Source: Candidatus Dormiibacterota bacterium (GTDB taxonomy: Bacteria; Acidobacteriota; Polarisedimenticolia; Gp22-AA2). From it: DNA of 64,000 bases. The position numbers and the translations under genes were made by a program. The notes beneath the pieces were generated by a model. That model was not told the origin of the DNA, did not search any database, and saw only the letters and a program-made list of their open reading frames with translations. The stretch covers positions 1-64,000 of the forward strand of contig DASQAT010000016.1 of assembly GCA_035635555.1 (NCBI GenBank). The letters are read 5' to 3'. Shown here one piece after another: positions 30,151 to 51,655 of the stretch. The first letter of the stretch is position 1. Each line of letters starts with the position of its first letter.

Positions 30151-31117
30151 CTAATCAACGTCACCTGCCGGGCGATTCCTATGGATCTGAACGTTTTGCA
30201 TCTTCCATTGAATCGCGGGATGGGCGGCAATCCTCGCGGCCTGCTCCGGATTGGCGGGAAAGAGAATCTCGGGTCGCAGCTCTCCCCGCTGGATGGCCTC
30301 GACATAATCCCTTTCGCTCGCTTCGAGACTCAGAAGAGGCCCGACGACGGCCCAAACCCTCTCGACGAGTTCGTGGGCGGACGGGACCGCGACAGCGACC
30401 AATGGGCGGAGCGACCGTGCGATCTGTGATACGCCCCTCGATCCTCTCGCGGCCGTAGAGCGTCAGCGAACGTTCGAGAACCGCCGAAAGGGCGATGAAC
30501 AACGCCCGGAACTCCGGCGTCCGCGTGGTCTCAGCCACTCCGCCCGGCAAGTACGCCACGTCCCATAGATCCCGGGGCGCGAAGCGGTCCAGAAGAGCGA
30601 GCACCTTGCCGACGACGAGCTCCGTCTGCCCGACGACACGAGCATGCGGTCGATCCAATTCCCCGGGCTGCCAGACAGAGCGGGTCTCCGTGACGGCCAG
30701 CGGAAGCCTGAACAGATAATTCATATCCAGCTCGATCCTGTCGTCCTGGCCGAGAACGGATCGGTACGTCAGAAAAAACTTCCTGCCGGCGAAGGAGTCC
30801 GCCGACTGCTGTACGCGGTACCCGAGACGCCGCGCGAGATCGGCTGCAGCGCGCTCCACCCGCGGTCGATCCGCGAGCATTCGCTCCCGCTCCAAGTGCG
30901 CGATGTAGTTGAAGTCGAGATCGACGGACAGCCTCTGCGGCGGACCAAAGCAGAGGTTCAGGGCGGTACCCCCCTTGAGGGCAAGCGCCTCTCCCAGGAG
31001 GGGGTGGCGAGATACGTCGGCGGCCACTTCCCCGAGCCGGACGACCTTCTCGAGCGGGATGATCTGGAATCCGGTCTCGGCGGCGCAGCGCTCCAGATAC
31101 TCGAGGCTAGGGTTCAT
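30151..31117 (-). pseudogene. abiEii: abiEii nucleotidyltransferase toxin gene, frameshifted near its end
   Basis: AbiEii/AbiGii-type nucleotidyltransferase. The N-terminal two thirds show the family motifs: LKGGTALNL and, 14 residues on, LSVDLDFNY (GG-T and DxD of the polymerase-beta fold), then KVLALLDRFAPRDLWDVAYL. Near 30434-30437 (a run of four C on the plus strand) a one-base difference moves the frame. The continuation in the other frame (GVSQIARSLRPLV... HELVERVWAVVG... HPAIQWKMQNV) is clearly the proper C terminus, ending at 30151. The in-frame product instead gains an Arg-rich tail to 30179. This is either a real inactivating or phase-varying indel, or a sequencing error. It overlaps the AbiEi gene by 11 nt. 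Confidence 0.8.
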
Positions 31118-31904
31118 CGGCCTCGCCCGGCCGATCAAGAATCGCCGGCAGGATGAGGTTCCACCGCGGCGCCAGCCTGCCCCCTCGACGGCCCCGCTCC
31201 AGGTATTGCGGGGAACGTGGACGGTGCCGCTCGATGCGCTCGAGCACGCGATCGGGCACGTGGAAGGATTTTCGGAAGCGCTCCAGGAACCAACCACTCG
31301 CTGACCAAAGATTCGCCAGTTTGTAGCGGCGCAGGACCTCCTCGAGCAGATCGAGATCGAGCGTCGGGAAGGCGCTTGCGGAACGCACCAGCTCCTCGAG
31401 TCCCCCGGCCAGGGCCGGCCGCCGGAACCCTTCGACCAGCGTCCGCTCCGGACCGGTGGTCACGAGCAGGCGACCCCGCCGCTCGACCCTGCGCGTCGCC
31501 AGGTGACGGCCATCCCCGGCCCTCAAGAGCTCGGGGTCATCGAGGAAGCGGATCGTGCTTCCGCCCAGTACCAGCGAACGGCGACGTTTGCGCGTGTAGA
31601 GCGTGCACTCCCTCCATGCCGAGTGCGCGACGCCCACGAGCTCGAGGGCGCTATGGTGCGAGAAGACAGCGTCCGACCGGGCGGCCGCCGCCACCATGAA
31701 GGGGTCGGGCATAAACCGCCCGGCACGCGTCCCTGAGGGCACGACCGCGTACAGACCGCGGGCCACGAGTTTGACGTGCCCGGATTCGAGGTGGTGCTTC
31801 AGCCGCTGCACGGCTCCCGACCGTCCGCGCGGAGGCGCGAGGGCGCTGGCGGCCTCGTCGAGGGAGAAGACCGGGTGGGTGGCAAAGAAGTCGTGGGTTT
31901 TCAC
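31107..31904 (-). CDS. abiEi: AbiEi antitoxin/transcriptional repressor
   Basis: 265 residues from GTG 31904, which has GGAG 6 nt upstream. The N terminus (THDFFATHPVFSLDEAASAL followed by GAVQRLKHHLESGHVKLVARGLYAV) is the AbiEi winged-helix DNA-binding domain. The C-terminal domain, which blocks the toxin, contains GPERTLVEGFRRP and a short RRYKLANLWSASGW segment. AbiEi binds inverted repeats in its own promoter and counteracts AbiEii in type IV toxin-antitoxin/abortive infection. An open frame continues upstream to 32012 but has no ribosome-binding site there. Confidence 0.85.
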   Translation of the reverse strand: MKTHDFFATHPVFSLDEAASALAPPRGRSGAVQRLKHHLESGHVKLVARGLYAVVPSGTRAGRFMPDPFMVAAAARSDAVFSHHSALELVGVAHSAWRECTLYTRKRRRSLVLGGSTIRFLDDPELLRAGDGRHLATRRVERRGRLLVTTGPERTLVEGFRRPALAGGLEELVRSASAFPTLDLDLLEEVLRRYKLANLWSASGWFLERFRKSFHVPDRVLERIERHRPRSPQYLERGRRGGRLAPRWNLILPAILDRPGEADEP

Positions 31905-31945
31905 TTTGCGCTCCGTGTGTCGCCGGGGGACAATCTTCCCCATAT

Positions 31946-31976
31946 CGACTCGGAACGTCAAGTCGTCTTCGACTCG
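31946..31976 (-). promoter_or_regulatory. Candidate AbiEi operator
   Basis: CGACTCG occurs at 31946-31952 and again at 31970-31976, with the inverse AGTCG between them (31961-31965) and a minus-strand TTGACG at 31961-31956. The repeats lie about 40-70 nt before the AbiEi start, where AbiEi usually binds. No clear -10 is seen. Confidence 0.3.
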
Positions 31977-31992
31977 AGACCAATGGATGTCG

Positions 31993-32050
31993 GCCACACG
32001 AATAGAGGCCAAAGGATTCCTTGCGGGGGCGGCAAAGGGGGCAGGATGAA
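31993..32050 (+). repeat. Dispersed repeat, copy B
   Basis: Ungapped match to 20461-20518 at 45 of 58 positions, same orientation. It lies upstream of abiEi, between it and the DUF2075 pseudogene, at the outer edge of the defence island. Confidence 0.55.
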
Positions 32051-32174: not shown

Positions 32175-32958
32175 GTGCGCGAAGACGCCCCTCCGCCCGA
32201 TAAGTCAGCCGAAGCCGGCTACGGCTGGCAGTCAGACCTGCCCACGTTCTACGGCGAGCAGTCACGGGTCGTCCGTGGGCGGCTGAAGGACTTCATCCCC
32301 GACGCCGGCACCGAGCAGATCCGCGCCTGGGACGCGTCGATCCCCTGGCTGCAGCGCGAGTGCCGCGAGCTCGTCGACGCCTACGCCCCGGCCAACACCT
32401 ACACCGCGATCCTCGAATACGAGCTGCCGCGCGAGTCGCGCCGGCCGGACGTCATCATCCTGGAGAACGGCGTCGTGGTCGTCCTCGAGCTGAAGGGGAA
32501 GGACACCCCGTCGCAGGCGGACATCGACCAGGTCTTCTGCTATGCCCGCGACCTGCGCAGCTATCACGCCGAATGCGCCGACCGCCCCGTGCACGCCGTC
32601 CTCGTGCCGACCCGCGCCGACCGCACTCCCCGCACGCTCGACGGTGTACACGTCGTCGGCCCGGAGGGAGTCGACCGCCTCCCTCCTCGAATGCACCAAG
32701 GTTCCGGCCTCGAGTCCCCTCACGCCCGAAGCGTTCCTCCGCCGGGATGCCTACGCTCCCCTCCCCAGCCTGGTGCGCGCGGCGCGCGACCTGTTCGCCC
32801 GGGAGCCCCTGCCGAGAATCAAGCGGGCGCGCGCGGCGACCGAGCCTGCCGTCGACCGGGTCACCGAGATTGCGCACCGGGCGGCGGCCACGTCAACGCG
32901 GCACCTGGTGCTGCTGACCGGCGTCCCCGGAGCTGGCAAGACCCTCGTCAGTCTCTAG
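32175..32958 (+). pseudogene. N-terminal fragment of a DUF2075-family ATPase/helicase
   Basis: The first frame (32175 to about 32680) encodes a nuclease-like or DUF2075 N-terminal region with PDVIILENGVVVVLELKGKDTPSQADIDQV, whose E-x-K pattern resembles a PD-(D/E)XK core. Near 32679-32683, in a C-rich run, the frame shifts by one, and the sequence continues in the next frame (LLECTKVPASSPLTPEAFLRRDAY... LVLLTGVPGAGKTLVSL) and stops at 32958, right after the Walker A motif. The helicase body of several hundred residues is missing. The gene is therefore frameshifted and truncated. GTG 32175 has AAGAGGA upstream. It is adjacent to AbiE, as expected for a decaying defence island. Confidence 0.7.
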
Positions 32959-34767: not shown

Positions 34768-34796
34768 TTCGGACTTAGCAATTGGGTGTTTATCAT
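34768..34796 (+). promoter_or_regulatory. Candidate promoter of the eight-gene defence operon
   Basis: TTCGGA (34768-34773) and TATCAT (34791-34796) with a 17-nt spacer, about 22 nt before the chosen GTG of the helicase gene. The surrounding sequence is AT-richer than its flanks. No operator dyad was noted. Confidence 0.4.
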
Positions 34797-34817
34797 GCTC
34801 GCCGCAGAAGCAGCAAG

Positions 34818-37800
34818 GTGACCGCCGCCACCAGGATCAGCCCAGGGCAGGTCCTCACCGGCCCGCTCTTCAATGAGCCGATGCGGGTGGAGACCGTCCA
34901 GGGCAATGGTCCAGAAAGCTGGGTGGTCGGGCTGGTTGGTGCGCAGTCGGAGCGCTACCGGAAGGTGACGCTGACCACCGCTGAACTCGCGCGCCTCACG
35001 ATTCTCGACCCTCGTCACTCCTTCAACGGCGATGGGCGCCTTCTCCGTCTCGGTCTCCAGGCCTACGCCCTCGGCATTGCCTACGAGTTCGATCCGTACT
35101 TTGGGCTCTCGATTTCCCGCGTGGATCCCCTCCCCCACCAGCTCGAGGCGGTTTACGACTACCTACTCAAACTCGCGCGGGTGCGGTTTCTCCTGGCCGA
35201 CGACGCCGGAGCGGGCAAGACGATCATGGCGGGCCTGCTCATCCGCGAGCTCGAGCTGCGGGGCCTCGCCGAACGCGTTCTGATCGTCTGCCCGGCCAAC
35301 CTCGCATTCCAGTGGCAGCGCGAGCTGAAAGAGAAATTTGATACCAAGTTTCTCGTGACCAAAGGACAAGATATCCGCGAGCAGTTCGGGGTCAATCAAT
35401 GGCTGGAGCGGAACCGGGTCATCACTTCGCTCGATCTGGCGAAGCGCCAGGACATCCTGCCCGGGCTGCGCCAAGTGCACTGGGATCTCGTCATCGTGGA
35501 TGAGGCGCACCGGATGTCAGCGGCGGACGAAACGCACAAGAGCCTTCGATACAAGCTGGGGGAGCTCTTGCGGGACACCTCGGACCATATGCTTTTGCTC
35601 ACGGCAACCCCACACAAGGGTGACCCGCTGAACTTCAGCCTGTTTCTGCAGCTCCTCGATGCCGACGCATACGCCGACGTGAAGTCGATCCGCGCGGCTA
35701 TGGACCGGCGTCGGGCGCCCTTCTACCTGCGACGCACCAAGGAGGCGATGGTCTACTTCCCGGAGCGCCGACCAGACGGCACCTGGGCCGCCGAGAAGAT
35801 CTTCACCAAGCGCATCCCGCACACGGTGGACTTCCACATCGACGGGGCGGAGTTCGAGCTCTACCGCGAAGTGACGCGGTTTGTGAAGCGCGAGAGCGCG
35901 CGCGCCGCGGCCGAGGGTGAAGACCCGCGCGCCCGCGCGATCGGCTTCCTGATGTCCCTCTACCAGCGACGCCTCGCATCTAGCACGTACGCCATGCGGC
36001 GTTCGCTGGAGAAACGGGCCCTGCGCCTCCAGGAGGGGCTCAAGCGCGCCCAGGACCTGGCCCGGCTGGCGCCGCCTGACATTCCCGGTCCGGAAGAGAT
36101 CGAAGAAATGGAGGAGAGCGAGCGCGAGCGGCTCGAGACTTTGCTCGAAGCCATCACGCTGGCGGGAAGCGCCGAACTGGTGCGAGACGAGGTGGAGGAA
36201 CTGCGGCGCCTGGCGACCCAGGCCCAGGCCGTCGAGAACGCAGGAGCCGAGGCCAAGCTCTCGGAGCTCAAGGGTCTCCTTCGGAAGGAAGGGTTCTTCG
36301 ACCATCCGGACCAGCGCCTGCTCCTCTTCACCGAGTTCAAGGACACGCTGGACTACCTCGTGACGCGGCTCAAGTCATGGGGCTTCCGCGTCGGCTTCAT
36401 CCACGGCGGCATGAAGTCGGGCTCCCGCGATGATCCGGGCACGCGCCTCCATGCCGAGCAGCAGTTCCGGGAAGGCGAGATCCAGGTCCTGGTCGCCACC
36501 GAGGCCGCGGGCGAAGGGATCAACCTCCAGGTTTGCAACATCCTCTTCAACTACGACATCCCCTGGAACCCGAACCGCCTCGAACAGCGGATGGGCCGCA
36601 TCCACCGCTACGGCCAGCGCAAGGACTGCCTGATCTTCAACTTCGTGGCCACCAACACGATCGAGGGGCGCGTCTTGCAGCGGCTGCTGGAGAAGCTCCA
36701 GGAGATCCGAGACGCCTTGGAAGACGATGCCGTCTTCAACGTCGTGGGGGAGGTCCTGCCGGCGGCTCATGTCGAGCGCGTGCTGCGCGACTACTACGCC
36801 GGGCTGCTCGGAGACGCCGACCTCGAGGAGCGCCTTCTCCATAACGTCGACGAGGGACAGTTCCGCGCCATCTGCCAGAACGCCCTGGAAGGGCTGGCGA
36901 GCAAGAAGCTCAACCTCGAGATGCTGATCGAGCGGCGCGCGCGGGCGCAGGAGCGCCGCGTCGTTCCGGAGACCATCGCGCGCTTCCTCCGCGAGGCAGC
37001 CGAGTTCGTGCCGCTCACCCTCAAGACCATCCCAAGCCTGTCGCACACCTTTGAGCCGGCGCGCACGCCTTCGGTCCTTCGTCGCTACGAGAAGGACCCG
37101 GACTGGAAGCTCCCGGCTCTCGCGGACCGCTATCCGCGCTGCTCCACCGACAGGGAGACGGCGGAAACGGAGAAACTGGAATGGGTCACACCCGGCCATC
37201 CGTTGTTCGAATCGATCCGGCGGCATACCCACGCCCAGGCGCTCGATGTCCTCGGCAAGGGCGCGACCTTCCACTCCCTCCAGCACGAGCACCCGGCGCG
37301 CATCGACTTCTACCGGGCGCGAGTGGTGGATGGACTCGGGCAGGTCATCCACGAGCGACTCTTCGCCGTGGAGATCTCCGAGGATGGCGAGCCTCGACTT
37401 CAGGAGCCTGGCCTGCTCGGCAACTTCGCGCCTGCGGATCCGCCGGCCGAGATGCCCGCGGTCGCAGCTCTTCCGGAGCCAACGGCGTGGCTCCACGAGA
37501 ACGCGCTCGCCCCGTTCCTCGAAGAGACTCGCAAGGATCGCCTGGCCGAGGTCGAGCGGGTCAGCTCGCACGTGGAGCTCTCGCTCACCGAGCTGCTTCA
37601 GCGAGCGGACGAGGAGATCGGGCGCGCGGCGGCCGACGTGGAGCAGAAACTCGCCGGCGCAGAGGGACGGCTCGCGCAGGCGGAGACGCGCCACGCGGAG
37701 CTGCTCGCCCGCCGCGAGCGCCGCAGGACCGACCTCGACCGCCAGCGGGCGCTCACGCTCCAGGCGGTGGAGCGGCTCGCGAGCGTCCTCGCGCTGCCGC

Positions 37801-38252
37801 ACCCCGAGCGCGAGGCGCCAGAGGTGCGGCGTCTCAAACCGAACTTCGAGACCGAAGCCGTCGCTATGCGCGTGGTGATGGAGCACGAGCGGGCGCAGGG
37901 TAGGCAGGTCTACGACGTCTCAGAGAAGAACCTGGGCTATGACGTCACGAGCCTCGACCTTGCCTCTGGCGAGCTGCGGCTGATCGAAGTGAAGGGGCTC
38001 GGCGCTGCGAGCGGCACGATCCTGCTCACCCCCAACGAGCGCCGCGTCGCAGAGGATCGGCCCGACTGCTACTGGCTTTACGTCGTCACCAACTGCGACG
38101 ATGCACCGCGGCTCCAGGAGCCGATCCGCGACCCCGCGAGACTCGACTGGCACGAGGTGACGAAGGTCGCGCACTACTACCTGAGCGTGGACGCAATGAA
38201 GAGGCCGATGCTGGTGCGCGAAAGCACACCACCCTATGGTGGCACCTCGTGA
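34818..38252 (+). CDS. SNF2-family helicase with C-terminal DUF3883 domain (DISARM DrmD-like)
   Basis: 1144 residues from GTG 34818. RecA-like domain 1 has Walker A at 128-135 (DDAGAGKT) and DEAH at 228-231, then LLTATPHKGD. Domain 2 has LLFTEFKDTLDYL, LVATEAAGEGINLQVCNILFNYDIPWNPNRLEQRMGRIHRYGQ (motifs V and VI). A long coiled-coil region follows at about residues 900-1000. The C-terminal DUF3883 domain (NLGYDVTSLDLASGELRLIEVKGL) has the D, E-x-K arrangement of a PD-(D/E)XK-like fold. Such helicases translocate on duplex DNA and occur in DISARM class 1 and in helicase-methylase-ATPase cassettes. The start could also be TTG 34782. First gene of the operon. Confidence 0.88.
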   Translation: MTAATRISPGQVLTGPLFNEPMRVETVQGNGPESWVVGLVGAQSERYRKVTLTTAELARLTILDPRHSFNGDGRLLRLGLQAYALGIAYEFDPYFGLSISRVDPLPHQLEAVYDYLLKLARVRFLLADDAGAGKTIMAGLLIRELELRGLAERVLIVCPANLAFQWQRELKEKFDTKFLVTKGQDIREQFGVNQWLERNRVITSLDLAKRQDILPGLRQVHWDLVIVDEAHRMSAADETHKSLRYKLGELLRDTSDHMLLLTATPHKGDPLNFSLFLQLLDADAYADVKSIRAAMDRRRAPFYLRRTKEAMVYFPERRPDGTWAAEKIFTKRIPHTVDFHIDGAEFELYREVTRFVKRESARAAAEGEDPRARAIGFLMSLYQRRLASSTYAMRRSLEKRALRLQEGLKRAQDLARLAPPDIPGPEEIEEMEESERERLETLLEAITLAGSAELVRDEVEELRRLATQAQAVENAGAEAKLSELKGLLRKEGFFDHPDQRLLLFTEFKDTLDYLVTRLKSWGFRVGFIHGGMKSGSRDDPGTRLHAEQQFREGEIQVLVATEAAGEGINLQVCNILFNYDIPWNPNRLEQRMGRIHRYGQRKDCLIFNFVATNTIEGRVLQRLLEKLQEIRDALEDDAVFNVVGEVLPAAHVERVLRDYYAGLLGDADLEERLLHNVDEGQFRAICQNALEGLASKKLNLEMLIERRARAQERRVVPETIARFLREAAEFVPLTLKTIPSLSHTFEPARTPSVLRRYEKDPDWKLPALADRYPRCSTDRETAETEKLEWVTPGHPLFESIRRHTHAQALDVLGKGATFHSLQHEHPARIDFYRARVVDGLGQVIHERLFAVEISEDGEPRLQEPGLLGNFAPADPPAEMPAVAALPEPTAWLHENALAPFLEETRKDRLAEVERVSSHVELSLTELLQRADEEIGRAAADVEQKLAGAEGRLAQAETRHAELLARRERRRTDLDRQRALTLQAVERLASVLALPHPEREAPEVRRLKPNFETEAVAMRVVMEHERAQGRQVYDVSEKNLGYDVTSLDLASGELRLIEVKGLGAASGTILLTPNERRVAEDRPDCYWLYVVTNCDDAPRLQEPIRDPARLDWHEVTKVAHYYLSVDAMKRPMLVRESTPPYGGTS

Positions 38253-38290
38253 CCCGCGAGCACTCTTCCGACCTCATCGTTGGCGGCTAG
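38249..38290 (+). other. Short frame coupled to helicase stop, possible gene remnant
   Basis: GTG 38249 overlaps the helicase stop (GTGA) and reads VTREHSSDLIVGG before TAG; in-frame sequence after the TAG continues NLDVYLAGRR. GTGA overlaps usually couple real genes, so this may be the start of a gene once adjacent to the helicase, cut off when the OLD/UvrD pair inserted. It could equally be chance. Confidence 0.25.
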
Positions 38291-38336
38291 AACCTCGACG
38301 TCTACCTCGCGGGACGCAGAGTTAGGAGCGCCGCAG

Positions 38337-40157
38337 ATGCGCATATCTCAGATTGAGATACGAAACTTCAGGGGCATCCGGCACGGGCGTATTACGTTGC
38401 CCGCTCATGCCGTCCTCCTGGGCGCGAACAACTCGGGCAAGACCACAATCGTCGAATCGCTCGCCCTCCTCTTCGGCCGGGAACGCATGGTCCGGCCGGT
38501 GTCCGACTGGGACTTCTATGGCGGGGCACCTAAACCGGACTCGCGGTTTCATATCATCGCAACCATAACCGGCTTCCCATCTGACGATGCCAAGATGTTA
38601 CCGGGGTGGTTCGTTGGGGAACACGCTGCCCGGCCAGTATGGTGGCACGATGATATGGAAGCTGTTTCCTTTGAGTCAGACCCTCCCGACGGCGCGCGAC
38701 TCGCCGCTCAGGTGGCTCTGACCGGGCGGTATGACGACGAGACGTGCGAGTTCGAGCTGGCCAGGTATTTCTATGACGGGGAGTGCGATCCGTTCACCGA
38801 TGGCTACAATCCAGTATCCGCCCAGGTCGTGCGAGACGTCGGCTTGTTTCTTCTCTCCAGCAACCGGGAATGGGACAGGCTCCTGTCCTTCGGTTCCTCC
38901 ACGTTGCTGAAGGTTCTCCGAGAATACGACGCGCTCCCTGGTAAGGCCCTGGAGGAATTGAAGGCGCAACTCCGAACAGGTGTCGTGAAGATCGAGGAGG
39001 CGTCACCGCTTTGTGACATTCTTGATGCCTCCGCACGGGAACTTCAGTCGTTCCTTCTCATCCAGCCAACCGGCAAGCTGGTCTACAGGCCGACGTCTTT
39101 GGATGCCGTTTCGGTCCTACAAAGCCTCGTGGCCCACGTGTCGGAATCGGACGACCTGCTCGTGCCTGTTTCGCGGCAAGGCGCAGGCATGATCTCACTC
39201 CAGGCGTTTCTCTTGCTTCTGGCTTTTGCGGAACAGCGAAGGACGAAAGACAGGAACTTCATCCTCGCAGCGGAGGAGCCGGAGCTTCACCTGCATCCGT
39301 CTTTACACCAACGGTTGGTGCATCGAATTCGGGCCTCCAGCGTTCAGTCCATCGTTACCACGCAGTCCCCGCATGTTGCGGCAGGCTATCAGCCCTCCGA
39401 GGTCATCTTCGTTAAGAACCTGCGCGGTGAATTGACGGCCGCGCCGGTCAGGAAGGAAGCGATACGGGATATTGGCAGCAAAAGCGTAAGGAAGCTCTAC
39501 CTGGCCCACCGCGGCGCCTTCTATGAAGCACTAATGGGCGGGGTGATCCTCGTACCCGAGGGGATGTACGACTTTGAATGGCTCAGCCTTTGGCAGCGGC
39601 TTGCCCAGTCCTCGCCGGATTCTGCGATGTTCTTCCGCCTCAGGCCTATCACGATCCTGCCGACTAGCGACGCTGCACTTGTGGAGAGCTTCAAGGAGCT
39701 CAGCAAGTTCAGGCTAGATGCGATCCCGGTTGTTGACGGGGATACAGCCGGTACCGGATATCTGAACCAGTTGATCTCCGCGACCCCTTCGCCGTTAAAG
39801 CTCGTTCGTTACGGCGACGGCGCAGCCACGGAGTGTCTCGCGGCTTGGATTCTTGAACCAGCGCTCGCTGCACCAGGAAGCGCCCTGGGCACACTCCTGC
39901 CCAGTCCCGCCAACCGGACCTTGCGCGGTTTGCAGGACGCCCTTGTCGACGCCACTACCAAAAAGGACCGCGAGCTTCGGGAGAATCTGGTGTGGGAATC
40001 GCTTCCCACTCTGGGATGCTGCAACAGGGCGGGCGAGTTCTTCCATGATCTTGCCGCGATAGCCTTCGGAGAACAGCCGAAGAACTCCGGGTGGACCATT
40101 GATACAAAGCCGAGCGGGACCAAGGTCTTCGCCGCCAGCCATATCAGGAGGGCCTGA
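38337..40157 (+). CDS. OLD-family ATPase-TOPRIM nuclease (Gabija GajA-like)
   Basis: 606 residues. The N-terminal ABC-type ATPase has Walker A at 29-36 (GANNSGKT) and a Walker B with EE at 313-314 (ILAAEEPELHLHP). The C-terminal TOPRIM has Glu408 in VILVPEG and Asp467/Asp469 in VVDGDTAG, so the nuclease centre is complete. Length and order match class 2 OLD proteins, including GajA, which nicks DNA when nucleotides are depleted during phage infection. ATG 38337 has GGAG 9 nt upstream. A UvrD-like helicase follows after one base, the arrangement of Gabija. GC is lower than in the flanking helicase and methylase genes. Confidence 0.85.
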   Translation: MRISQIEIRNFRGIRHGRITLPAHAVLLGANNSGKTTIVESLALLFGRERMVRPVSDWDFYGGAPKPDSRFHIIATITGFPSDDAKMLPGWFVGEHAARPVWWHDDMEAVSFESDPPDGARLAAQVALTGRYDDETCEFELARYFYDGECDPFTDGYNPVSAQVVRDVGLFLLSSNREWDRLLSFGSSTLLKVLREYDALPGKALEELKAQLRTGVVKIEEASPLCDILDASARELQSFLLIQPTGKLVYRPTSLDAVSVLQSLVAHVSESDDLLVPVSRQGAGMISLQAFLLLLAFAEQRRTKDRNFILAAEEPELHLHPSLHQRLVHRIRASSVQSIVTTQSPHVAAGYQPSEVIFVKNLRGELTAAPVRKEAIRDIGSKSVRKLYLAHRGAFYEALMGGVILVPEGMYDFEWLSLWQRLAQSSPDSAMFFRLRPITILPTSDAALVESFKELSKFRLDAIPVVDGDTAGTGYLNQLISATPSPLKLVRYGDGAATECLAAWILEPALAAPGSALGTLLPSPANRTLRGLQDALVDATTKKDRELRENLVWESLPTLGCCNRAGEFFHDLAAIAFGEQPKNSGWTIDTKPSGTKVFAASHIRRA

Positions 40158-40158
40158 C

Positions 40159-41562
40159 ATGGGGCAAGTGGCGGTCGTTATCGGCCAGGCGGGGACGGGG
40201 AAGACCACATGGCTCATGGGCAGGGCCAAGGAGTTGGCGCCAGGGCTTGTCGCTGCTGAGCACCAGCGAATGCTCGTCATTACTTACATGCACGGTGCCA
40301 GGCGCAGGCTGGAGCACAAGCTCAAGGACGCCGGCCGGACGATCCCCTACTCAATTGCAACCATTGACGGGTTCGCGTTGTCCATCGTCAACCGCTGGCG
40401 AACTGCCCTGGGACACACGACACCAGTCGCAGCGGTGCCGGGGGATGTGGACTTCGCCGACGGTGTGCTCGGCATCGAGGCCGATTTCGGAAGAGTTGTC
40501 GGCAGCGCGGCTCGGCTGCTTCAGAGCCAGACCGTCGGCGGGATCATCGGCGCAACCTACCCCCTTATCCTCATAGACGAGTTCCAGGACTGCCACGGAC
40601 CACGACTGGAGTTCGTCGCCGCCTTGTCAAAGCAAGGCTCTGTTCTGCTCGCTGCGGACGAGTTCCAACTCCTTGACTCCACGGTTCCGGGCTGCCCGGC
40701 GGTCGAATGGGCAAGGACGCAGACAGCCACCGGGGTGGGGACCATCGAGGAACTCACGACCTGCCATCGGACCTCGGTTACGGGCATCTTGGCCGCCGCG
40801 CGATGCCTTCGGGACAACACCCCCGCAACCGGACGGACTATTCCCGTCGTGTGTTGTCTCAATCATGGACCTGCGGCGTGGAAGATCATCGAGCGGTTGG
40901 TGTGTTGCGCACCCTCTGACCGGTGGACGGGAACGTGCGCATTGATCTGTCCGAGCCACGATCCCGTGTTGGAAAAGGTCCTGGAATCCTGCACAACCCA
41001 GCTTCGGAAGAAGAACCTCGCCCCGATCCGGTGGCAAGTAGAGCGCTCCGCTGAGGAAGAGCAAGGTCGTACTGCCACCAGTCTCGGACTGGCGACGGCC
41101 ACGCCTGACTCGGATGGCAGTTGGCAAACGCCTTCTGGGCCGCTTGATGGGGTTGCCACGAACGTCCTGAATCGCGTTCAGCGTTTTGCGCGGCTCCGAG
41201 GCATCGACGTCATCCCGCACAGGCTCGTGGCTCGGCACGTGGATATGACCGTTCACCAGCAACGGGCCTACTGGTCGCCCTCATCGAGCAGAACGGTGAC
41301 CACGGTACATGGCGCAAAGAACCGGGAGTTCGACAACGTCTTCGTCTTGTGGCCCTACAAGGTTCCCTCGGACGTCGCTCAGCGAAGACGTCTGCTCTAC
41401 AATGCGGTCACTCGCAGTAGACGAAATTGCATGGTGTTGGTCCATGGCGACGAGAATAGGGCCCGCACTGACCCCGTGCTGGCTCTGCTCGGGCTACCTG
41501 AACCTGCCTTCAAGCCAAATCGCACGTTGAGGGAACGAACGACGATGAGGACTGGAAGATAG
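40159..41562 (+). CDS. UvrD/PcrA-like helicase (Gabija GajB-like)
   Basis: 467 residues, short for UvrD and similar to GajB. Walker A is at 9-16 (GQAGTGKT), Walker B at 138-144 (LIDEFQD), motif III reads LAADEFQLLD, and the C terminus carries TVTTVHGAKNREFDNVFV and LLYNAVTRSRRNCMVLV (motifs V and VI). The 2B/1B insertions of full UvrD are reduced. The start ATG 40159 has AGGAGG upstream within the end of the OLD gene. GajB senses DNA ends and activates GajA in known Gabija; I infer the same pairing here. It abuts the DUF1156 gene directly (TAG then ATG). Confidence 0.85.
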   Translation: MGQVAVVIGQAGTGKTTWLMGRAKELAPGLVAAEHQRMLVITYMHGARRRLEHKLKDAGRTIPYSIATIDGFALSIVNRWRTALGHTTPVAAVPGDVDFADGVLGIEADFGRVVGSAARLLQSQTVGGIIGATYPLILIDEFQDCHGPRLEFVAALSKQGSVLLAADEFQLLDSTVPGCPAVEWARTQTATGVGTIEELTTCHRTSVTGILAAARCLRDNTPATGRTIPVVCCLNHGPAAWKIIERLVCCAPSDRWTGTCALICPSHDPVLEKVLESCTTQLRKKNLAPIRWQVERSAEEEQGRTATSLGLATATPDSDGSWQTPSGPLDGVATNVLNRVQRFARLRGIDVIPHRLVARHVDMTVHQQRAYWSPSSSRTVTTVHGAKNREFDNVFVLWPYKVPSDVAQRRRLLYNAVTRSRRNCMVLVHGDENRARTDPVLALLGLPEPAFKPNRTLRERTTMRTGR

Positions 41563-44500
41563 ATGATCGCCAAGGACTGCAAGCGCCTGGCGGAGGTGGA
41601 CTTCCCGATCGCCGAGGTGTCGCGGCACGCAGCGCGGGAGAAGTCGATCCGGCACGGGCATCCGAGCACGCTGCACCTGTGGTGGGCGCGGCGGCCGCTC
41701 GCATCGAGCCGGGCTGTGCTGCTCGCGCTACTGTGGCCGGACCCGTGTGATCCGCTGTGCCCGACGGAGTTCAAGGCGAAGGCGCGGAAGCTCTTGCCAC
41801 AGGTGGGCGGCTGCAATCCGGGCACCACGGACCAGGATCTGCGCAAGGCGCTGCTCAAGTTCATCGCAGACTTCGCGAACTGGGATAACGCGGCGCAACG
41901 CACCTATCTCGAGGTGAGCCGGGCGCTGGTGAAGGCGGCGCACGGCGAGGAGCCGCCGCTGGTCGTGGACCCATTCGCGGGGGGCGGCTCGATCCCGCTC
42001 GAGGCGCTGCGGCTCGGGTGCGAGGCGTTCGCGAGCGACCTGAACCCCGTCGCCTGCCTGATCCTCAAGGTGATGCTCGAGGACATCCCGCGCCACGGCC
42101 CGAAGCTCGCGGAGGATCTGCGCCGCTCCGGGGCGGAGATCAAGCGGCAGGCGGAGAAGGATCTGGCCGACCTCTATCCGAAGGACCCGGACAGCGCGAC
42201 GCCGATCGCCTACCTTTGGGCGCGGACCGTGCGCTGCGAGTCGCCGCACTGCGGTGCGGAGATCCCACTCGCGCGTTCGCTCTGGCTCTGCAAGAAGGCG
42301 AATCGCAGGCGGGCGCTCAAGCATCGCGTCGTTCGGCCCGCGGGCGAGCCGCCGCGCGTCGAGTTCGAGGTCTTCGAGCCGAAGGCGGAGAAAGACGTGC
42401 TCGGCGGCACGGTGACGCGGGCGAAGGCCACTTGCCTTGCCTGCGGTGCGGTGCTCCCGCCCGAGCGCGTGAGGGCGCAGCTCGCGGCGGAGCGTGGCGG
42501 CGCCGATGTAATCTTCGACGCGAAGAGCCGGCGTACGGGCGGGGCGCGGATGCTGACTGTCGTCACGCTCAAGGCCGACGAGCAGGGCCGGCACTACCGT
42601 CTGCCCGCCGAGCGCGACTACGGGGCCGTCCGGAAGGCGCAAGAGCGCCTCGCGGCGATCCTTGGTGAGTGGGAGCGTGGTGGGAAGGAGGGCCTCTGTC
42701 CGGTGCCGAATGAGCCGCTGCCGCCGATCGGGACGTTGGGCTTTCGCGTGCAGCGGTACGGCATGCTCCAGTGGGGGGATCTTTTCACGGCGCGGCAGAA
42801 GGTGGCGCTCGTGACGCTGGCGCTGCGGATGGCCCGAGAGGACGGAGACGTTGTTGAGGCAATGGCGTCTTCTCTTTCGAGACTTGCGGACAAGAACGCA
42901 TCGCTCGCCGTGTGGAATCGGATCGGCGAGAAGATTGAGCACGTCTTCGGGCGTCAGGCGCTCCCAATCGTCTGGGACTTCGCAGAGGTGCCGATATTCT
43001 CGAGCTCCACCGGTAATTTCGGCAGCGGTGTCGATCTAGTCCGAAAGGTGTTAGAGGTTTGGCCTGGCTCTCTTGCGGGGCAAGTTCAACTCGCTGACGC
43101 TACCGATCACCCACTCCCCGACCAGACCGCAACCGTCTGGTTCACCGACCCGCCCTATTACGATGCGGTCCCGTACGCCGACCTCTCGGACTTCTTCCTC
43201 GTCTGGCTGAAGCGCGCGCTACCGGGACGAGCAGTCTTGCGGGATCCGTTCGATCCGGCGAACCCACTTTCGCCCAAACGGCGCGAGGCCGTGCAGGACG
43301 AGACGAAACGAGACAACGGTCGGCCGAAGGACCGCGCGTGGTTCGAGGAGACGATGGCCCGTGCCTTCGCCGAGGGCCGACGGGTACTGCGAGAGGACGG
43401 CGTGGGCTCCGTGGTTTTTGCCCACAAGACGACAGAAGGCTGGGAAGCTCTCCTCTCCGGGATGATTCGGGGCGGCTGGACGATTACCGGCTCGTGGCCC
43501 ATCGCCACGGAGCGCCCCGGGCGACTGCGCGCACAGGAGTCTGCCGCCCTCGCCACCAGCGTCCACCTCATCTGCCGCCCCCGCCCCGTGGATGCCGGCG
43601 TCGGTGACTGGGCCGACGTGCTGCGCAAACTGCCGACCCGCGTCGCCGACTGGATGGAACGCCTTCAGGGCGAAGGGGTCCGCGGCGCCGACCTCGTCTT
43701 CGCCTGCATCGGGCCGGCGCTCGAGATCTTCAGCCGCTATACGAGGGTCGAGACCGCCGACGGTCGCGAGGTGGCACTCGCCGAGTACCTGGAGAAGGTC
43801 TGGGAGGTCGTTGGCCGTAGCGCCCTCGCACAAGTGCTCGGCACCGCCGAGGCCAAGACCCGCAACGGCGCCGCCGGAGCCGTCGAGGAGGACGCGCGGC
43901 TCACGGCGCTCTTCCTGTGGACGCTCCAGAGCACGGATGGCGAGACGGCGGACGACGCAAACGACGAGGGCGAGGACGAGGAACCGTCCGACGAACACGA
44001 CGAAGAAGAGGGCTCCTCCGGCGGCAAGGCCAAGGGCTTCACGCTTGTCTTCGACGTCGTGCGCCGCTTCGCGCAGCCACTCGGCATCGAGCTCCCCAAG
44101 TGGGAAGGCCGGGTTATCGAGACGAAGAAGGGCGTCGTGCGCCTGCTGCCGATCGCCGAGCGGGCGAAGCAGCTCTTCGGCGAGGACGGCGCGCAGGCCG
44201 TTGCTGCGCGGCTCGAGCAAGAGTCGACGACGCCCAACCCGCTCCAGGGGATGCTGTTCCCTGACATCCAGGCCGGTGCGGCTCCCACGATCCGCGGGCG
44301 TGGCCGAGGCCGCGGGAAGGGAGCTGGCGTCGACGTGTCGGACGAGAGCCTGGCCGCCGCCCGCGAGGCCACGACCCTCGACCGTGTCCATGCAGCGATG
44401 CTCCTCCAGGCCGGCGGCCGCACCAACGCACTGCGCGCCTTGCTCAAGGCCGAGCAGGAGCGCGGTCCCGATTTCCTACGCCTGGCGAACGCGCTCTCGG

Positions 44501-44568
44501 CTCTCTACCCGAAGGGCAGCGAAGAGAAGCGTTTGCTCGATGCTATGCTGCTGGTGGTGCCGAGGTGA
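41563..44568 (+). CDS. DUF1156-containing adenine-specific DNA methyltransferase
   Basis: 1001 residues. The N-terminal DUF1156 signature (FPIAEVSRHAAREKSIRHGHPSTLHLWWARRPLA) is followed by SAM motif I at 136-143 (DPFAGGGS). A zinc-ribbon-like Cys pattern lies in the insertion (residues 226-300), and catalytic motif IV DPPY is at 529-532 within FTDPPYYDAVPYADLSDFF. The C-terminal third includes an acidic linker and a helical domain. The DPPY motif and order indicate N6-adenine or N4-cytosine methylation, adenine being likely for this family. In defence cassettes it marks self DNA or acts in recognition. The next gene starts directly after its stop. Confidence 0.9.
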   Translation: MIAKDCKRLAEVDFPIAEVSRHAAREKSIRHGHPSTLHLWWARRPLASSRAVLLALLWPDPCDPLCPTEFKAKARKLLPQVGGCNPGTTDQDLRKALLKFIADFANWDNAAQRTYLEVSRALVKAAHGEEPPLVVDPFAGGGSIPLEALRLGCEAFASDLNPVACLILKVMLEDIPRHGPKLAEDLRRSGAEIKRQAEKDLADLYPKDPDSATPIAYLWARTVRCESPHCGAEIPLARSLWLCKKANRRRALKHRVVRPAGEPPRVEFEVFEPKAEKDVLGGTVTRAKATCLACGAVLPPERVRAQLAAERGGADVIFDAKSRRTGGARMLTVVTLKADEQGRHYRLPAERDYGAVRKAQERLAAILGEWERGGKEGLCPVPNEPLPPIGTLGFRVQRYGMLQWGDLFTARQKVALVTLALRMAREDGDVVEAMASSLSRLADKNASLAVWNRIGEKIEHVFGRQALPIVWDFAEVPIFSSSTGNFGSGVDLVRKVLEVWPGSLAGQVQLADATDHPLPDQTATVWFTDPPYYDAVPYADLSDFFLVWLKRALPGRAVLRDPFDPANPLSPKRREAVQDETKRDNGRPKDRAWFEETMARAFAEGRRVLREDGVGSVVFAHKTTEGWEALLSGMIRGGWTITGSWPIATERPGRLRAQESAALATSVHLICRPRPVDAGVGDWADVLRKLPTRVADWMERLQGEGVRGADLVFACIGPALEIFSRYTRVETADGREVALAEYLEKVWEVVGRSALAQVLGTAEAKTRNGAAGAVEEDARLTALFLWTLQSTDGETADDANDEGEDEEPSDEHDEEEGSSGGKAKGFTLVFDVVRRFAQPLGIELPKWEGRVIETKKGVVRLLPIAERAKQLFGEDGAQAVAARLEQESTTPNPLQGMLFPDIQAGAAPTIRGRGRGRGKGAGVDVSDESLAAAREATTLDRVHAAMLLQAGGRTNALRALLKAEQERGPDFLRLANALSALYPKGSEEKRLLDAMLLVVPR

Positions 44569-45819
44569 ATGATGAACACGACCATCAAGACTCTGATCGT
44601 TAAACGATTCCGCAGCCTCCCCTCGGCCCGGATCGATCTCGACAACCCGACCTTTCTGGTCGGGAGGAACGGCTCGGGCAAGAGCAATCTTGTGGATGTG
44701 TTCGCCTTTCTCTCCGAGGCTATGTCCCTCCCTTTGCGGGCGGTCTTCGATCGGCGCGGCGGCATCGCCGCCGTCCGGAACAAGACCTCTGGCAAGAGCT
44801 TTCCGCCAAATCTCGGGCTGGCGGTGGTTTTCGGGGCGCTCGATGGAACTGCCACAACGGGACGGTACGCGTTCGAAGTCAAGGCTCTTCCGGATTATGG
44901 GTTCGAGGTAGACCGCGAGCAGTGCCTGATCCACTCTCGAGATGGGGGGCGGGAGTGGTTCGAGCGTCAGGGCAAGAAGTTCTCGTCGAGCGCGGAGGGA
45001 CTTCGCCCTCGCATAGACCCGTCAGCCCTTGCTCTACCGGTCGTCGGGGGTCACGCTGGTTTTGCCCCCGTCCTGCGAGCCTTGAGCGCGCTCCGCGTCT
45101 ATTCCATCGAGCCGCAGAAGCTGCGGGAGATGCAGGACCCTGACAGCGGGGTGACTTTGAAGCCCGATGGAAGCAATGCCGGCAGCGTGCTGAAGGAGAT
45201 CGAGCGACAGTCGCCGGAGGACGCGGCCCGGATCTGCGAGATTCTGGCATTAATCGTTCCGAACACGAAAAGCGTGCACGCCAAGAAGCACGGCAACAAG
45301 CTGTCTCTCGAGTTCACGCAGGAGTGGGAACAAGGCTCGCACTCGAGAAGAAACATTAGTGTTGGAGAGCCCAAGACGGGAAGCCAGACGAAGATGCTCC
45401 GCTTCGAGGCTTTCAATATGTCCGATGGAACTCTGCGAGCCCTGGGGCTTCTTGCCGCAGTCTTTCAGAGGCCCTCCCCCGCGCTTCTAGCGATCGAGGA
45501 ACCCGAAGCGACAATTCATCCCGGCGCGCTCGGAGCCGTGCTCGATCTCTTGAAGGGGGCAACGAGGCGAATGCAAGTTGTTATCACGACGCACAGCCCC
45601 GATGTTCTGGACCAAAAGTGGATCCGCGACAGCCAGATCCGGGTGGTCGACTGGAGCGAGGGAGCCACTCGTGTTGCCGCCCTCTCCGATGCTTCCCGCC
45701 GGGCCATCCAGGAACATCTGATGGGCGCCGGAGAGCTTCTTCGCTCGAACGCACTGGATCCCCAGCCCTTGTTCGACGAAGCGATCTCGCAGCAAGAGTT
45801 GTTCGAGAGAGTTGAATGA
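44569..45819 (+). CDS. AAA/ABC-type ATPase, partner of DUF4276 protein
   Basis: 416 residues. Walker A is at 32-39 (GRNGSGKS), an ABC signature-like segment precedes ALLAIEEPEATIHPG (Walker B with catalytic Glu pair), and VVITTHSPDVLD is the H-loop region. This matches AAA_21/RecF-like ATPases of two-gene defence pairs such as PARIS (AriA) and AbiL. It overlaps the following DUF4276 gene by ATGA and starts right at the end of the DUF1156 gene; the second ATG (44572) is an equal choice. In such pairs the ATPase holds an effector nuclease until it senses a phage trigger. Confidence 0.82.
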   Translation: MMNTTIKTLIVKRFRSLPSARIDLDNPTFLVGRNGSGKSNLVDVFAFLSEAMSLPLRAVFDRRGGIAAVRNKTSGKSFPPNLGLAVVFGALDGTATTGRYAFEVKALPDYGFEVDREQCLIHSRDGGREWFERQGKKFSSSAEGLRPRIDPSALALPVVGGHAGFAPVLRALSALRVYSIEPQKLREMQDPDSGVTLKPDGSNAGSVLKEIERQSPEDAARICEILALIVPNTKSVHAKKHGNKLSLEFTQEWEQGSHSRRNISVGEPKTGSQTKMLRFEAFNMSDGTLRALGLLAAVFQRPSPALLAIEEPEATIHPGALGAVLDLLKGATRRMQVVITTHSPDVLDQKWIRDSQIRVVDWSEGATRVAALSDASRRAIQEHLMGAGELLRSNALDPQPLFDEAISQQELFERVE

Positions 45820-46454
45820 CCATTCAACCGATCGTGGAGGGCGATGGTGAGATGGAGGCGGTGCCGGCACTTCTCCGGCGCTTGCTTGCTGAAGGAGCAG
45901 TGACAGGAGTACAAGTTGGCAAACCGATCAAGCGGCCGAGAAACCAGCTCGTCAGAGAGGAAGTGCTGACGAGGATGGTCCGGTTCGCTCTGCTCAGGCC
46001 CGAATGCGGTGCTGTTCTGATCATCCTCGACGGGAACTCTGACTGTCCCAAGACACTTGGTCCCGTTTTGCAGGGCTGGGCAGAGGCCGCCGCAGGGAGA
46101 GTCCCCTGTGCAGTGGTCCTGGCGCACCGGGAGTACGAGGCTTGGTTTCTTGCTTCTCTGGAGTCATTGCGCGGCATCCGGGGTATTCGGCGCGAGGCAG
46201 AGGCACATCCCGATCCAGAAGAGCCCAGGGACGCTAAGGGAGAACTCGAAATATGCATGGAACCCAGTAGAGCCTACCATCCGACCGTTGACCAACCAGC
46301 GTTGACCGCGTTGTTTGACATGGCGCAAGCGTACAGTCGGTCGAGGAGCTTTCGTCGAATGGTTCGGGCCGTCGAGCTCCTCCTGAGAGCGGCAAGTATC
46401 CCAATACCCATATGGCCACCGCCGGGCTGGCTGCCTCATGTAGAGGGCATCTAA
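45816..46454 (+). CDS. DUF4276 TOPRIM-like effector
   Basis: 212 residues. The N terminus PIVEGDGEMEAVPALLRRLL carries the TOPRIM-like Glu8, and VLIILDGNSDC carries Asp72 and Asp76, with HREYEAWFLAS downstream. This spacing fits a small TOPRIM fold, and DUF4276 proteins are recurrent partners of AAA_21 ATPases. A nuclease role is inferred. Its ATG overlaps the stop of the ATPase and its TAA overlaps the ATG of the DUF499 gene (TAATG), so three genes are tightly coupled. Confidence 0.78.
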   Translation: MTIQPIVEGDGEMEAVPALLRRLLAEGAVTGVQVGKPIKRPRNQLVREEVLTRMVRFALLRPECGAVLIILDGNSDCPKTLGPVLQGWAEAAAGRVPCAVVLAHREYEAWFLASLESLRGIRGIRREAEAHPDPEEPRDAKGELEICMEPSRAYHPTVDQPALTALFDMAQAYSRSRSFRRMVRAVELLLRAASIPIPIWPPPGWLPHVEGI

Positions 46455-49216
46455 TGGAACCCTGGTACAAGGTTGCCACCCCTCGCAAGGAAGTCCGCGA
46501 AGGCCGCTCGTTCAACCCGGACGAGTTCGCCATCGCCCTCGAGCAGATCGTGGCCGGGACGGCGCCGGTGGACTATCGCGATCCCGAGCAATTCTTTGCC
46601 CGCACCTGCTTCACGCGGGCGCTGCGCGAGCATGCCGGCATGGTGTTGCGCCGGCTCTCGGGCAAGACCGAGAACACCGCACCGGTCCTCACGCTCATCA
46701 CCCAGTTCGGCGGCGGCAAGACGCACACGCTCACCGCTCTCTACCATCTCGCCAAGAATGGGAAGAAGGCAGGCGGGTTCACTGGCGTCGCTGCCCTGTT
46801 GCGGGAGGCCGCGCTCTCCTCGGTCCCGGAGGCACGGGTCGCCGTCTTCGTGGGCAATGCCTGGGACCCGCAGCCTGGCCGCGAGACGCCGTGGATCGAC
46901 ATCGCCCGCCAGCTCTCGGGTGACAAGGGCGTCGAGGCGCTCGGCCCGGCGGCACGGACCACACCACCCGGAACCGAGGCGATCGCACGAGTCTTCCAAG
47001 CGGCCGGCGCGCCGGTGCTCCTGCTCTTCGACGAGGTGCTCAACTTCCTGAACCGCCACCGGGCAAGCGCCGATTCGTTCCACGCCTTCATCCAGAACCT
47101 GACTGTCGCCACGACCGGCACCACGCACGGCGCGACGGTGATCAGCCTCCCCCGCAGCCAGGTCGAGATGACCGACTGGGACATGGAGTGGCAGGACCGG
47201 ATCTCCAAAGTCGTGCGGCGCGTCGCCAAGGATCTGATCGCAAACGACGAGACCGAGATCAGCGAGGTCGTCCGGCGCCGTCTTTTCGAGGACCTGGGGA
47301 GAGAGAAGATCCGCAAAAGCGTCGCGTGGGCCTTCGGCGACTGGTGTTTCGAGCGGCGCGCCCAGCTCCCACCGGAGTGGACCGCGGTGGACTCCGCCGC
47401 GACCGAGGCCAAGGCGCGCGAGTATCTGCGCGGCCGTTTCGAGGCCTGCTACCCGTTTCATCCGGCGACGCTATCGGTCTTCCAGCGCAAGTGGCAGGCG
47501 CTGCCGCAGTACCAGCAAACGCGCGGCACGCTGGCGATGCTGGCCCAGTGGATCTCGATCGCCGCTCAGGACGCCTTCCGCAAGGCGCGCACCGAACCGC
47601 TCCTCACGCTCGGGTCGGCGCCGCTCTCCGAACCCGGGTTCCGAAGTGTGGTGCTGGGCCAGCTCGGTGAGTCGCGGCTTGTCGCGGCGATCGACACCGA
47701 CATCGCCGGTGAGCAGGCGCACAGCAAGGCGCTCGACGCTGACACCAAAGGACCGCTGCGAGAGATCCACCGGCGCGTCGGCACCGCGATCCTCTTCGAG
47801 TCGTCGGGCGGGCAGACCGACAAGGTCGCGCACCTTCCCGAGCTGCGCTTTGCCCTCGGCGAGCCCGAGCTCGACACAACATCCATCGATAATGCCGCCC
47901 TCGCACTGGAGGGCCGGTCTTATTTCATCCGCAAGGCAGGCTCGGACGGCTTCCGCATGGGCTACCAGCCCACGATGAAGAAGGTGGTGAGCGACCGGCG
48001 CGCGTCGCTCGACGAGGAGACCGAAGTCAAGCCCACCCTACGCAAGCTCGTCGAGGACGAGTTCCGGCGCGGGGCGAGCATCCCCGTCGTGCCCTTCCCG
48101 CACGATGGGGCCGAGATCCCGGACACGCCGAGACTCACGCTGGTGGTGGCCGATCCCGAGGTGGAGTGGTCCGGCGGCGGCTCGCAGCGCGCGCAGATCG
48201 CCGAGTGGACCCGCCAGCGTGGCAAGTCCCCGCGGCTCTACCCGGGCGCGCTCGTCTGGTGCCTAAAGAAGCCGGGCCGCGACCTGCGCGAGAAAGTCGA
48301 GATCTGTCTTGCATGGAGGCGGGTGGCGCGGGAGGTCGCCGAGGGGACGCTCGGCGGTGAGTTCGACAAGAGCGATCGGGCAGAGCTCCAGTCCAGGGTG
48401 AAGGAGTCCGAGGAGGCCGCCAAAGATGGAGTCTGGGGCGATTATCGCTACGCAGTCCTCGCGGACGGTCACGAGGATGAGGGACTAAAAGTGATCGACC
48501 TTGGCGCAGGCCACTCTTCAAGCGGTGAAACCCTATGTGGTCGTGTCATTCTCGCCCTTAAGTCTGGAGCGCTCCTCAATGAGTCCGTCGGCGCCAGCTA
48601 CATCGAGCGCAACTGGCCGCCTGCCTTGAAGGATTCCGGGGCGTGGCCACTCGCGAGCCTGCGGCAGAGCTTCCTCAATGGCTCGCTCACGAGGCTGGTC
48701 GATCCGGATGCGGTCCTAAAAACCAAGGTCGTCGAGTTCGTCATCCGGGGTGACTTCGGACTCGCGTCGGGTCCGAAACCCACCGGGACTTACGAGAGGA
48801 TGTGGTTCCAGGAGATGGTATCGCCCGACGAGGTTGCCTTCGAGTCCGACGTATACTTGCTGAGAAAGGCCTCGGCGGAGGCGCTCGTATCGGGTGCTCC
48901 ACCCCAGCCCGTGTCAGGACCGAGTCCCCAGCCTGGTCCCGAACCGATTCCCGTGCCCCTGCGCGGCCCGACGACGGGACCAGACACAGGGCCCGTCGTG
49001 CAGACCAGGACACTTCGACTTGTGGGCACCGTTCCTTCAGAGATATGGAACCGCCTCGGAACGAAGATCCTCCCGAAACTGCGCTCCGGGTCAGATCTCA
49101 AGATCGGTTTGGACTTTTCAGTGACAGTGAAGGCAGACGGAGCAGGGAGCCTCGCAGCAGAGCTCCGGCAGATACTTCAGGAACTCGGGCTTTCTGAAGT
49201 CGTACGGGTAGAATGA
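46454..49216 (+). CDS. DUF499-family ATPase of defence cassette
   Basis: 920 residues from ATG 46454. The N terminus is typical of DUF499 (WYKVATPRKEVREGRSFNPDEFAIALEQI). A P-loop lies at about 83-91 (ITQFGGGKT) and Walker B is LLLFDEVLNFL with Asp193-Glu194. Downstream come AAA-like helical regions (YPFHPATLSVF) and, from about residue 600, further domains. A Pro-rich linker (about residues 815-850) precedes a small C-terminal domain. DUF499 and DUF1156 genes recur together with helicases in defence islands. Here they are separated by the ATPase/TOPRIM pair. Molecular role unknown; ATP-dependent recognition or remodelling is likely. Confidence 0.85.
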   Translation: MEPWYKVATPRKEVREGRSFNPDEFAIALEQIVAGTAPVDYRDPEQFFARTCFTRALREHAGMVLRRLSGKTENTAPVLTLITQFGGGKTHTLTALYHLAKNGKKAGGFTGVAALLREAALSSVPEARVAVFVGNAWDPQPGRETPWIDIARQLSGDKGVEALGPAARTTPPGTEAIARVFQAAGAPVLLLFDEVLNFLNRHRASADSFHAFIQNLTVATTGTTHGATVISLPRSQVEMTDWDMEWQDRISKVVRRVAKDLIANDETEISEVVRRRLFEDLGREKIRKSVAWAFGDWCFERRAQLPPEWTAVDSAATEAKAREYLRGRFEACYPFHPATLSVFQRKWQALPQYQQTRGTLAMLAQWISIAAQDAFRKARTEPLLTLGSAPLSEPGFRSVVLGQLGESRLVAAIDTDIAGEQAHSKALDADTKGPLREIHRRVGTAILFESSGGQTDKVAHLPELRFALGEPELDTTSIDNAALALEGRSYFIRKAGSDGFRMGYQPTMKKVVSDRRASLDEETEVKPTLRKLVEDEFRRGASIPVVPFPHDGAEIPDTPRLTLVVADPEVEWSGGGSQRAQIAEWTRQRGKSPRLYPGALVWCLKKPGRDLREKVEICLAWRRVAREVAEGTLGGEFDKSDRAELQSRVKESEEAAKDGVWGDYRYAVLADGHEDEGLKVIDLGAGHSSSGETLCGRVILALKSGALLNESVGASYIERNWPPALKDSGAWPLASLRQSFLNGSLTRLVDPDAVLKTKVVEFVIRGDFGLASGPKPTGTYERMWFQEMVSPDEVAFESDVYLLRKASAEALVSGAPPQPVSGPSPQPGPEPIPVPLRGPTTGPDTGPVVQTRTLRLVGTVPSEIWNRLGTKILPKLRSGSDLKIGLDFSVTVKADGAGSLAAELRQILQELGLSEVVRVE

Positions 49217-51620: not shown

Positions 51621-51655
51621 TGACCTCGTGACCAGATGTGACTATCTTGTGGTCA
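51620..51655 (+). promoter_or_regulatory. Promoter and operator of Phd/PIN operon
   Basis: TTGACC (51620-51625) and TATCTT (51643-51648), 17-nt spacer. The ATG at 51655 is 6 nt past the -10 box with no ribosome-binding site, so the transcript should be leaderless. TGACCA (51629-51634) and TGGTCA (51650-51655) form an inverted repeat flanking the -10, a natural antitoxin operator. Confidence 0.6.

Follow-up and report, generated by a model that had tools for sequence, protein, structure and literature searches.

We consider it very likely that the window analysed here (the whole 64,000-nt stretch of DNA) holds an Hma defence cassette with a cargo slot between HmaA and HmaB, filled in this case by a portable two-gene Gabija-type module. 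The cassette is a complete Hma system (DUF499-centred, BREX-related, Type-1), and the reading of the pair as portable cargo is drawn from two sets of observations: the same pair stands alone elsewhere, and the corresponding junction is closed or differently filled in related cassettes. Extra defence genes occupy both inner slots as well as the 3' flank; the Hma core itself is ordinary.

An Hma cassette with embedded defence genes

Genes for the helicase, the DUF1156-type methylase and the DUF499 ATPase lie on one strand in the Hma order, and all three matched their PADLOC models. The features of the cassette and its 3' flank are as follows.

34782–38252, plus strand: HmaA, SNF2-type helicase with a C-terminal NOV_C (nuclease-like) domain, core gene (PADLOC HmaA, 3.7e-170)
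38253–38336, no strand assigned: 84-nt putative leader between HmaA and the GajA-like gene, containing most of a 13-codon GTGA...TAG frame
38337–40157, plus strand: GajA-like protein of 606 aa, OLD-family ABC ATPase with a TOPRIM tail (PADLOC GajA, 8.2e-54)
40159–41562, plus strand: GajB-like UvrD/SF1 helicase of 467 aa (best PADLOC match GajB, 3.5e-20)
41563–44568, plus strand: HmaB, DUF1156 DNA adenine methylase, core gene (PADLOC HmaB, 1.6e-116; Pfam DUF1156, 1.3e-21)
44569–45819, plus strand: HEC-01A ('Hma-embedded candidate'), OLD/AAA_21-type ATPase, cargo of the second slot (PADLOC HEC-01A, 1.7e-110)
45816–46454, plus strand: HEC-01B, DUF4276 protein, partner of HEC-01A (PADLOC HEC-01B, 1.7e-64; Pfam DUF4276, 1.5e-13)
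46454–49216, plus strand: HmaC, DUF499 ATPase, core gene (PADLOC HmaC, 1.8e-91; Pfam DUF499)
49257–50558, plus strand: GmrSD_N and HNH nuclease, directly 3' of HmaC (Pfam GmrSD_N, 1.5e-22; HNH, 1.2e-8)

HmaA carries the Pfam domains SNF2, Helicase_C and NOV_C, the last of which (residues 1025–1111; 2.4e-22) is nuclease-like by domain match only. Its 3' end is intact, with the stop TGA at 38250–38252, and its exact start codon is uncertain; for HmaC, the Met at 46454, where relatives align, was taken as the start in place of 46412. The cassette is absent from the four same-genus genomes searched. An attempt to place the edge of the island by synteny in same-genus genomes was given up because the left-flank query matched only paralogous AAA genes.

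The second slot, between HmaB and HmaC, is occupied by HEC-01, orthologues of which (about 50–60% identity; 53–60% for HEC-01A) sit in the same slot of four relatives (L028, L040, L084 and L092), so that HEC-01 seems to have persisted longer as cargo than the Gabija pair. The GmrSD_N/HNH gene has the lowest GC content of the cassette (54.8%) and is probably a third cargo item. Other genes of possible interest lie outside the cassette. An AbiEii-type nucleotidyltransferase is encoded on the minus strand at 30179–32012 (Pfam, 3.4e-22), and the gene upstream of it, which overlaps it, reads like an AbiEi partner without giving a Pfam match. Just 5' of the cassette (32175–32958), two overlapping frames form a putative single broken gene with a P-loop-like GVPGAGKT end, again without a Pfam match, and a Phd-type antitoxin is paired with a PIN-domain toxin downstream of the cassette (51628–52331).

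The Gabija-type pair

The preliminary description had recognized an OLD/UvrD pair of Gabija type inside the cassette, and its coordinates hold. The GajA-like gene starts with ATG, and an AGGAG can be read directly 8 nt 5' of it. Its product has a Walker A motif (GANNSGKTT), EEPE, PEG at E408 and DGD at D467/D469, all of which are kept in an alignment of eight sequences (that of the window and seven stand-alone relatives). GajA was the best PADLOC model, its match spanning only the first 432 residues, and the next-best family was AriA (4e-25); a GajA-family profile matched solved GajA chains (3e-11), among other OLD proteins. The GajB-like protein contains GQAGTGKTT, DEFQD and LLYNAVTR, and the profile of its family matched UvrD/PcrA/Rep as well as solved GajB chains (6e-8). 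Sequence identity of both proteins to known Gabija proteins is low. The C-terminal tail of the GajB-like protein runs some 15–20 residues past the end of its stand-alone relatives and reaches exactly to the HmaB start (41500–41562); this tail may be read-through of the joining sequence.

The closest relatives of the two genes are stand-alone pairs in the same gene order, on plasmids as well as chromosomes. The same two-gene unit, at 31–36% identity and with neither HmaA nor HmaB nearby, was found on plasmids of Rhizobium, Robbsia, Pseudomonas and Ruegeria, and it also occurs in three genomes of the window's own phylum, likewise away from HmaA and HmaB. No near-identical copy of the pair was found. 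A single-sequence scan of viral contigs found no GajA relatives, and a profile scan returned weak OLD-type matches only.

The HmaA–HmaB junction across phyla

A comparison with 66 further Hma cassettes, drawn from many phyla, shows that the HmaA–HmaB junction is a cargo slot holding changing defence genes. The distance between the two core genes ranges from -4 to 7562 bp; eight junctions are closed and 58 are occupied (two of these, L057 and L058, being near-copies). In L024, L040 and L041 the HmaA stop and the HmaB start overlap by 4 nt, which represents the site without cargo. Among the 96 slot proteins scanned are OLD/AAA ATPases, Schlafen-type proteins, UvrD helicases, DUF1016/YhcG nucleases, NYN, GmrSD and Fic proteins, and others. 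L031 and L075 have nearly the same cassette (HmaA identity 98.4%) and different slot contents, with identity resuming at the HmaB start codon.

None of the 58 occupied slots combines a GajA-like with a GajB-like gene, so that, with the other eight closed, the OLD/UvrD pair is absent from the junctions of all 66 relatives, and the comparison bears out the preliminary description on this point. Thus a full defence unit lies between core genes of the window's cassette and is variable among relatives. One alternative is that the pair, rather than being exchangeable cargo, belongs permanently to the working machinery of an Hma subtype that has GajAB-like subunits of its own. Its operon fit is indeed perfect, on the same strand, with 1 nt between its genes and 0 nt between GajB and HmaB (the GajB TAG abuts the HmaB ATG at 41563), but so tight a right edge is normal for any cargo: whatever its identity, the last cargo gene ends within 10 nt of HmaB in 33 of the 58 occupied relatives. 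Furthermore, the pair is found in no other relative, the five cassettes closest in both core genes (L019, L020, L021, L030 and L054) lack it and have no cargo cluster in common with the window, and it exists on its own elsewhere. We regard a fixed subunit role as unlikely.

A second alternative, that GajA and GajB were recruited to the slot separately and became neighbours here, draws on the finding that relatives carry one or the other gene by itself: an OLD-type gene alone in L019, L020, L025, L048, L056 and others, and a GajB-like UvrD gene alone in L026, L035, L050, L057 and L065, typically directly 5' of HmaB. These single slot genes scored at most 56 and 51 bits against the GajA and GajB profiles, respectively, compared with 821 and 555 bits for the window genes, which were themselves included in the profiles along with the stand-alone pairs. 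As the two window genes also share their relatives, with the gene order unchanged, separate recruitment is highly improbable. The portable-module reading would instead have the Gabija unit arrive as a whole, either in place of earlier cargo or by opening the slot, with both core genes left undamaged.

Base composition and the gap upstream of GajA

The pair had been described as lower in GC than its neighbours, and this is correct: GC content is 66.1% in HmaA, 65.5% in the gap, 59.5% in GajA, 61.9% in GajB and 68.6% in HmaB, which places the pair about 7 points below the mean of its neighbours. The dip is not special to the pair, however. Slot GC is below mean core GC in all 58 occupied relatives, which are not fully independent loci though they span many phyla (median difference -5.5 points), and 20 of them dip more than the window does. 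Since every occupied slot is GC-poorer than its core, the dip marks cargo in general, and we discarded it as a sign of recent insertion of the pair.

The 84-nt gap and its short GTGA-coupled frame ending in TAG are present as described. The frame, VTREHSSDLIVGG, opens with a GTG at 38249–38251 that overlaps the HmaA TGA and closes with a TAG at 38288–38290. The preliminary description saw here a possible insertion scar, and in the frame the start of a gene that once followed the helicase, a suggestion it tied to the frame having a homologue. Neither proposal stood, because neither the frame nor the sequence after the TAG has a homologue in the 66 relatives, 396 phylum genomes or 72,556 plasmids (all hits were at chance level; the best foreign match of the short frame among the phylum genomes, at E 0.03, was on a contig other than that bearing the genome's Hma) and because the gap resembles neither the HmaA 3' end nor the HmaB 5' end, the sequences of which genuine scars at this site consist in relatives.

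It is therefore very unlikely that the gap is the truncated start of a gene into which the Gabija pair was inserted. The GTGA overlap at the HmaA stop would suit such a history, as would the gap's GC content, which is nearer to the core than to the cargo, as judged from 84 nt only. Coupled genes are also common at this junction: 36 occupied relatives have an NTGA frame starting at the HmaA stop, and in 18 of these it runs for at least 100 codons. Another 14 of the 36, however, have a frame that is dead within 30 codons, and the gene boundaries of the pair show neither a target-site duplication nor an inverted repeat. A frame opening at the HmaA TGA requires merely A, G or T before it. Of the window's NTGA sites, 14.7% close within 13 codons, and dead frames of this kind occur in 14 of the 58 occupied relatives, so the short frame is no more than expected by chance. 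Gaps of at least 50 nt before the first called ORF occur in 26 of the 58 occupied relatives, and the most plausible role for the gap in the window is that of a leader to the GajA-like gene. As a possible edge mark we considered a direct repeat of 13 nt (38376 in GajA, 41647 in HmaB); both copies are inside coding sequences, and we treat it as chance.

Core-end fossils in related cassettes

In 11 of 65 cassettes the HmaA–HmaB slot contains truncated copies of core-gene ends (the 3' end of HmaA or the 5' end of HmaB). Ten loci are listed below, with positions in the respective locus; L079 is a weaker case, of 28 nt.

L084, 6964–7126: last 163 nt of HmaA, 94% identical
L048, 3886–3959: last 74 nt of HmaA, 97% identical; this locus also has an HmaB 5'-end copy
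L050, 7936–8002: HmaA 3' end
L021, 8982–9058: HmaA 3' end
L038, 6958–7001: HmaA 3' end
L042, 1813–1927: HmaB nt 2–116, 95% identical
L087, 6794–7168: HmaB nt 19–396, 87% identical
L071, 5763–5888: HmaB 5' end
L061, 7583–7668: HmaB 5' end
L027, 7835–7896: HmaB 5' end

At the DNA level, core-end matches number 13 in 164 kb of HmaA–HmaB slot sequence (79 per Mb), against one in 516 kb outside the cassettes (2 per Mb). Twelve of the 13 have the orientation of the core genes, the remaining one being short, on the reverse strand and similar to the HmaB end, and reversed slots used as a control in profile searches gave nothing comparable. Nearly all of the loci bearing these fossils are draft metagenome assemblies; divergence from the intact genes is 3–28%, and duplication during assembly is therefore an unlikely source. 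The old junction is preserved in L042 and L027, where a 4-nt overlap between the upstream cargo gene and the start of the fossil HmaB persists. Such fossils are fossil junctions between stacked cargo modules.

Several related arrangements were seen. In L071 (5750–5998) and L061 (7583–7814) an HmaB 5' fragment lies immediately 5' of an HmaA fragment (marginal in L071, iE 0.2), as if two tandem cassettes had fused and lost the middle. The slot of L075 contains a 306-bp internal HmaB fragment (4243–4548; HmaB nt 839–1144, 95% identical), up to which its cassette is close to that of L031. HmaB 3'-end copies occur in the HmaB–HmaC slot of L038 (15529–15660, 78%) and L049 (15090–15142, 76%), which suggests that the second slot behaves like the first.

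From these sequences we infer that core-gene ends may be the sites of recombination through which cargo is exchanged. An incoming segment consisting of an HmaA 3' end, cargo and an HmaB 5' end would recombine with a resident Hma cassette; an imperfect exchange would leave truncated core ends between stacked cargo genes, and a clean double exchange would leave none. The slot of the window contains no core-end fossil at the DNA level. A weak HmaB-start profile match in the window's GajA (iE 0.028) was put down to chance, as it falls within the GajA gene itself and nothing corresponds to it at the DNA level. We hold it to be an even proposition that Hma cassettes are capture platforms, their cargo swapped or stacked by core-end recombination, with the window's Gabija module a product of clean exchange.

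A possible second layer of defence

In Hma systems, HmaB methylates self DNA and HmaA and HmaC act on unmodified DNA; in Gabija, the TOPRIM nuclease GajA is under ATP control and GajB is a helicase. Spacing and strand suggest that the pair is transcribed together with the cassette. HmaB would methylate self DNA, leaving unmodified phage DNA open to attack by HmaA and HmaC, and if this first layer failed or nucleotide pools fell, the GajA TOPRIM nuclease and the GajB helicase would cut DNA and stop the infection. OLD/TOPRIM modules have been proposed to be backup effectors of BREX-related systems (PMC12839542), and the embedded pair is therefore most likely a second, partly independent defence layer behind a restriction-like Hma core.

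Relation to known systems

The window shares with Hma its NOV_C helicase, DUF1156 methylase and DUF499 ATPase, in the same order on one strand, and differs in the extra defence genes of its two inner slots and 3' flank. Its pair resembles Gabija in joining an OLD-family ATPase with TOPRIM residues to a UvrD-like helicase directly 3', but is distant in sequence, has a short GajB (467 aa) with an extra tail, and sits inside another system. Defences embedded in Hma, and Gabija- or PARIS-type modules at BREX-related loci, are already known from the published record. Embedding in Hma, the HEC genes and the term 'guilt-by-embedding' go back to the preprint of Payne et al. (2024), as cited in PMC12988326, and 'Septu in Hma systems' appears in PMC12255303. 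Like the HEC genes, the window pair lies between hma core genes, and the second slot contains HEC-01A/B itself; the pair differs in being of a known system type (Gabija) rather than a new candidate. PMC12839542 terms this kind of cassette a DUF499-centred BREX-related system and places OLD-ABC-linked nucleases, most prominently TOPRIM-linked ones, at BREX/BR loci of at least 1242 taxa, naming PARIS and Gabija. We found no description of core-end fossils in the literature covered, which did not include the Payne 2024 preprint itself.

The window is thus a clear added case of one known defence system inside another. Gene-order surveys do not settle how nested defences are assembled and swapped, and to this question the core-end fossils of its relatives offer a concrete, testable clue.
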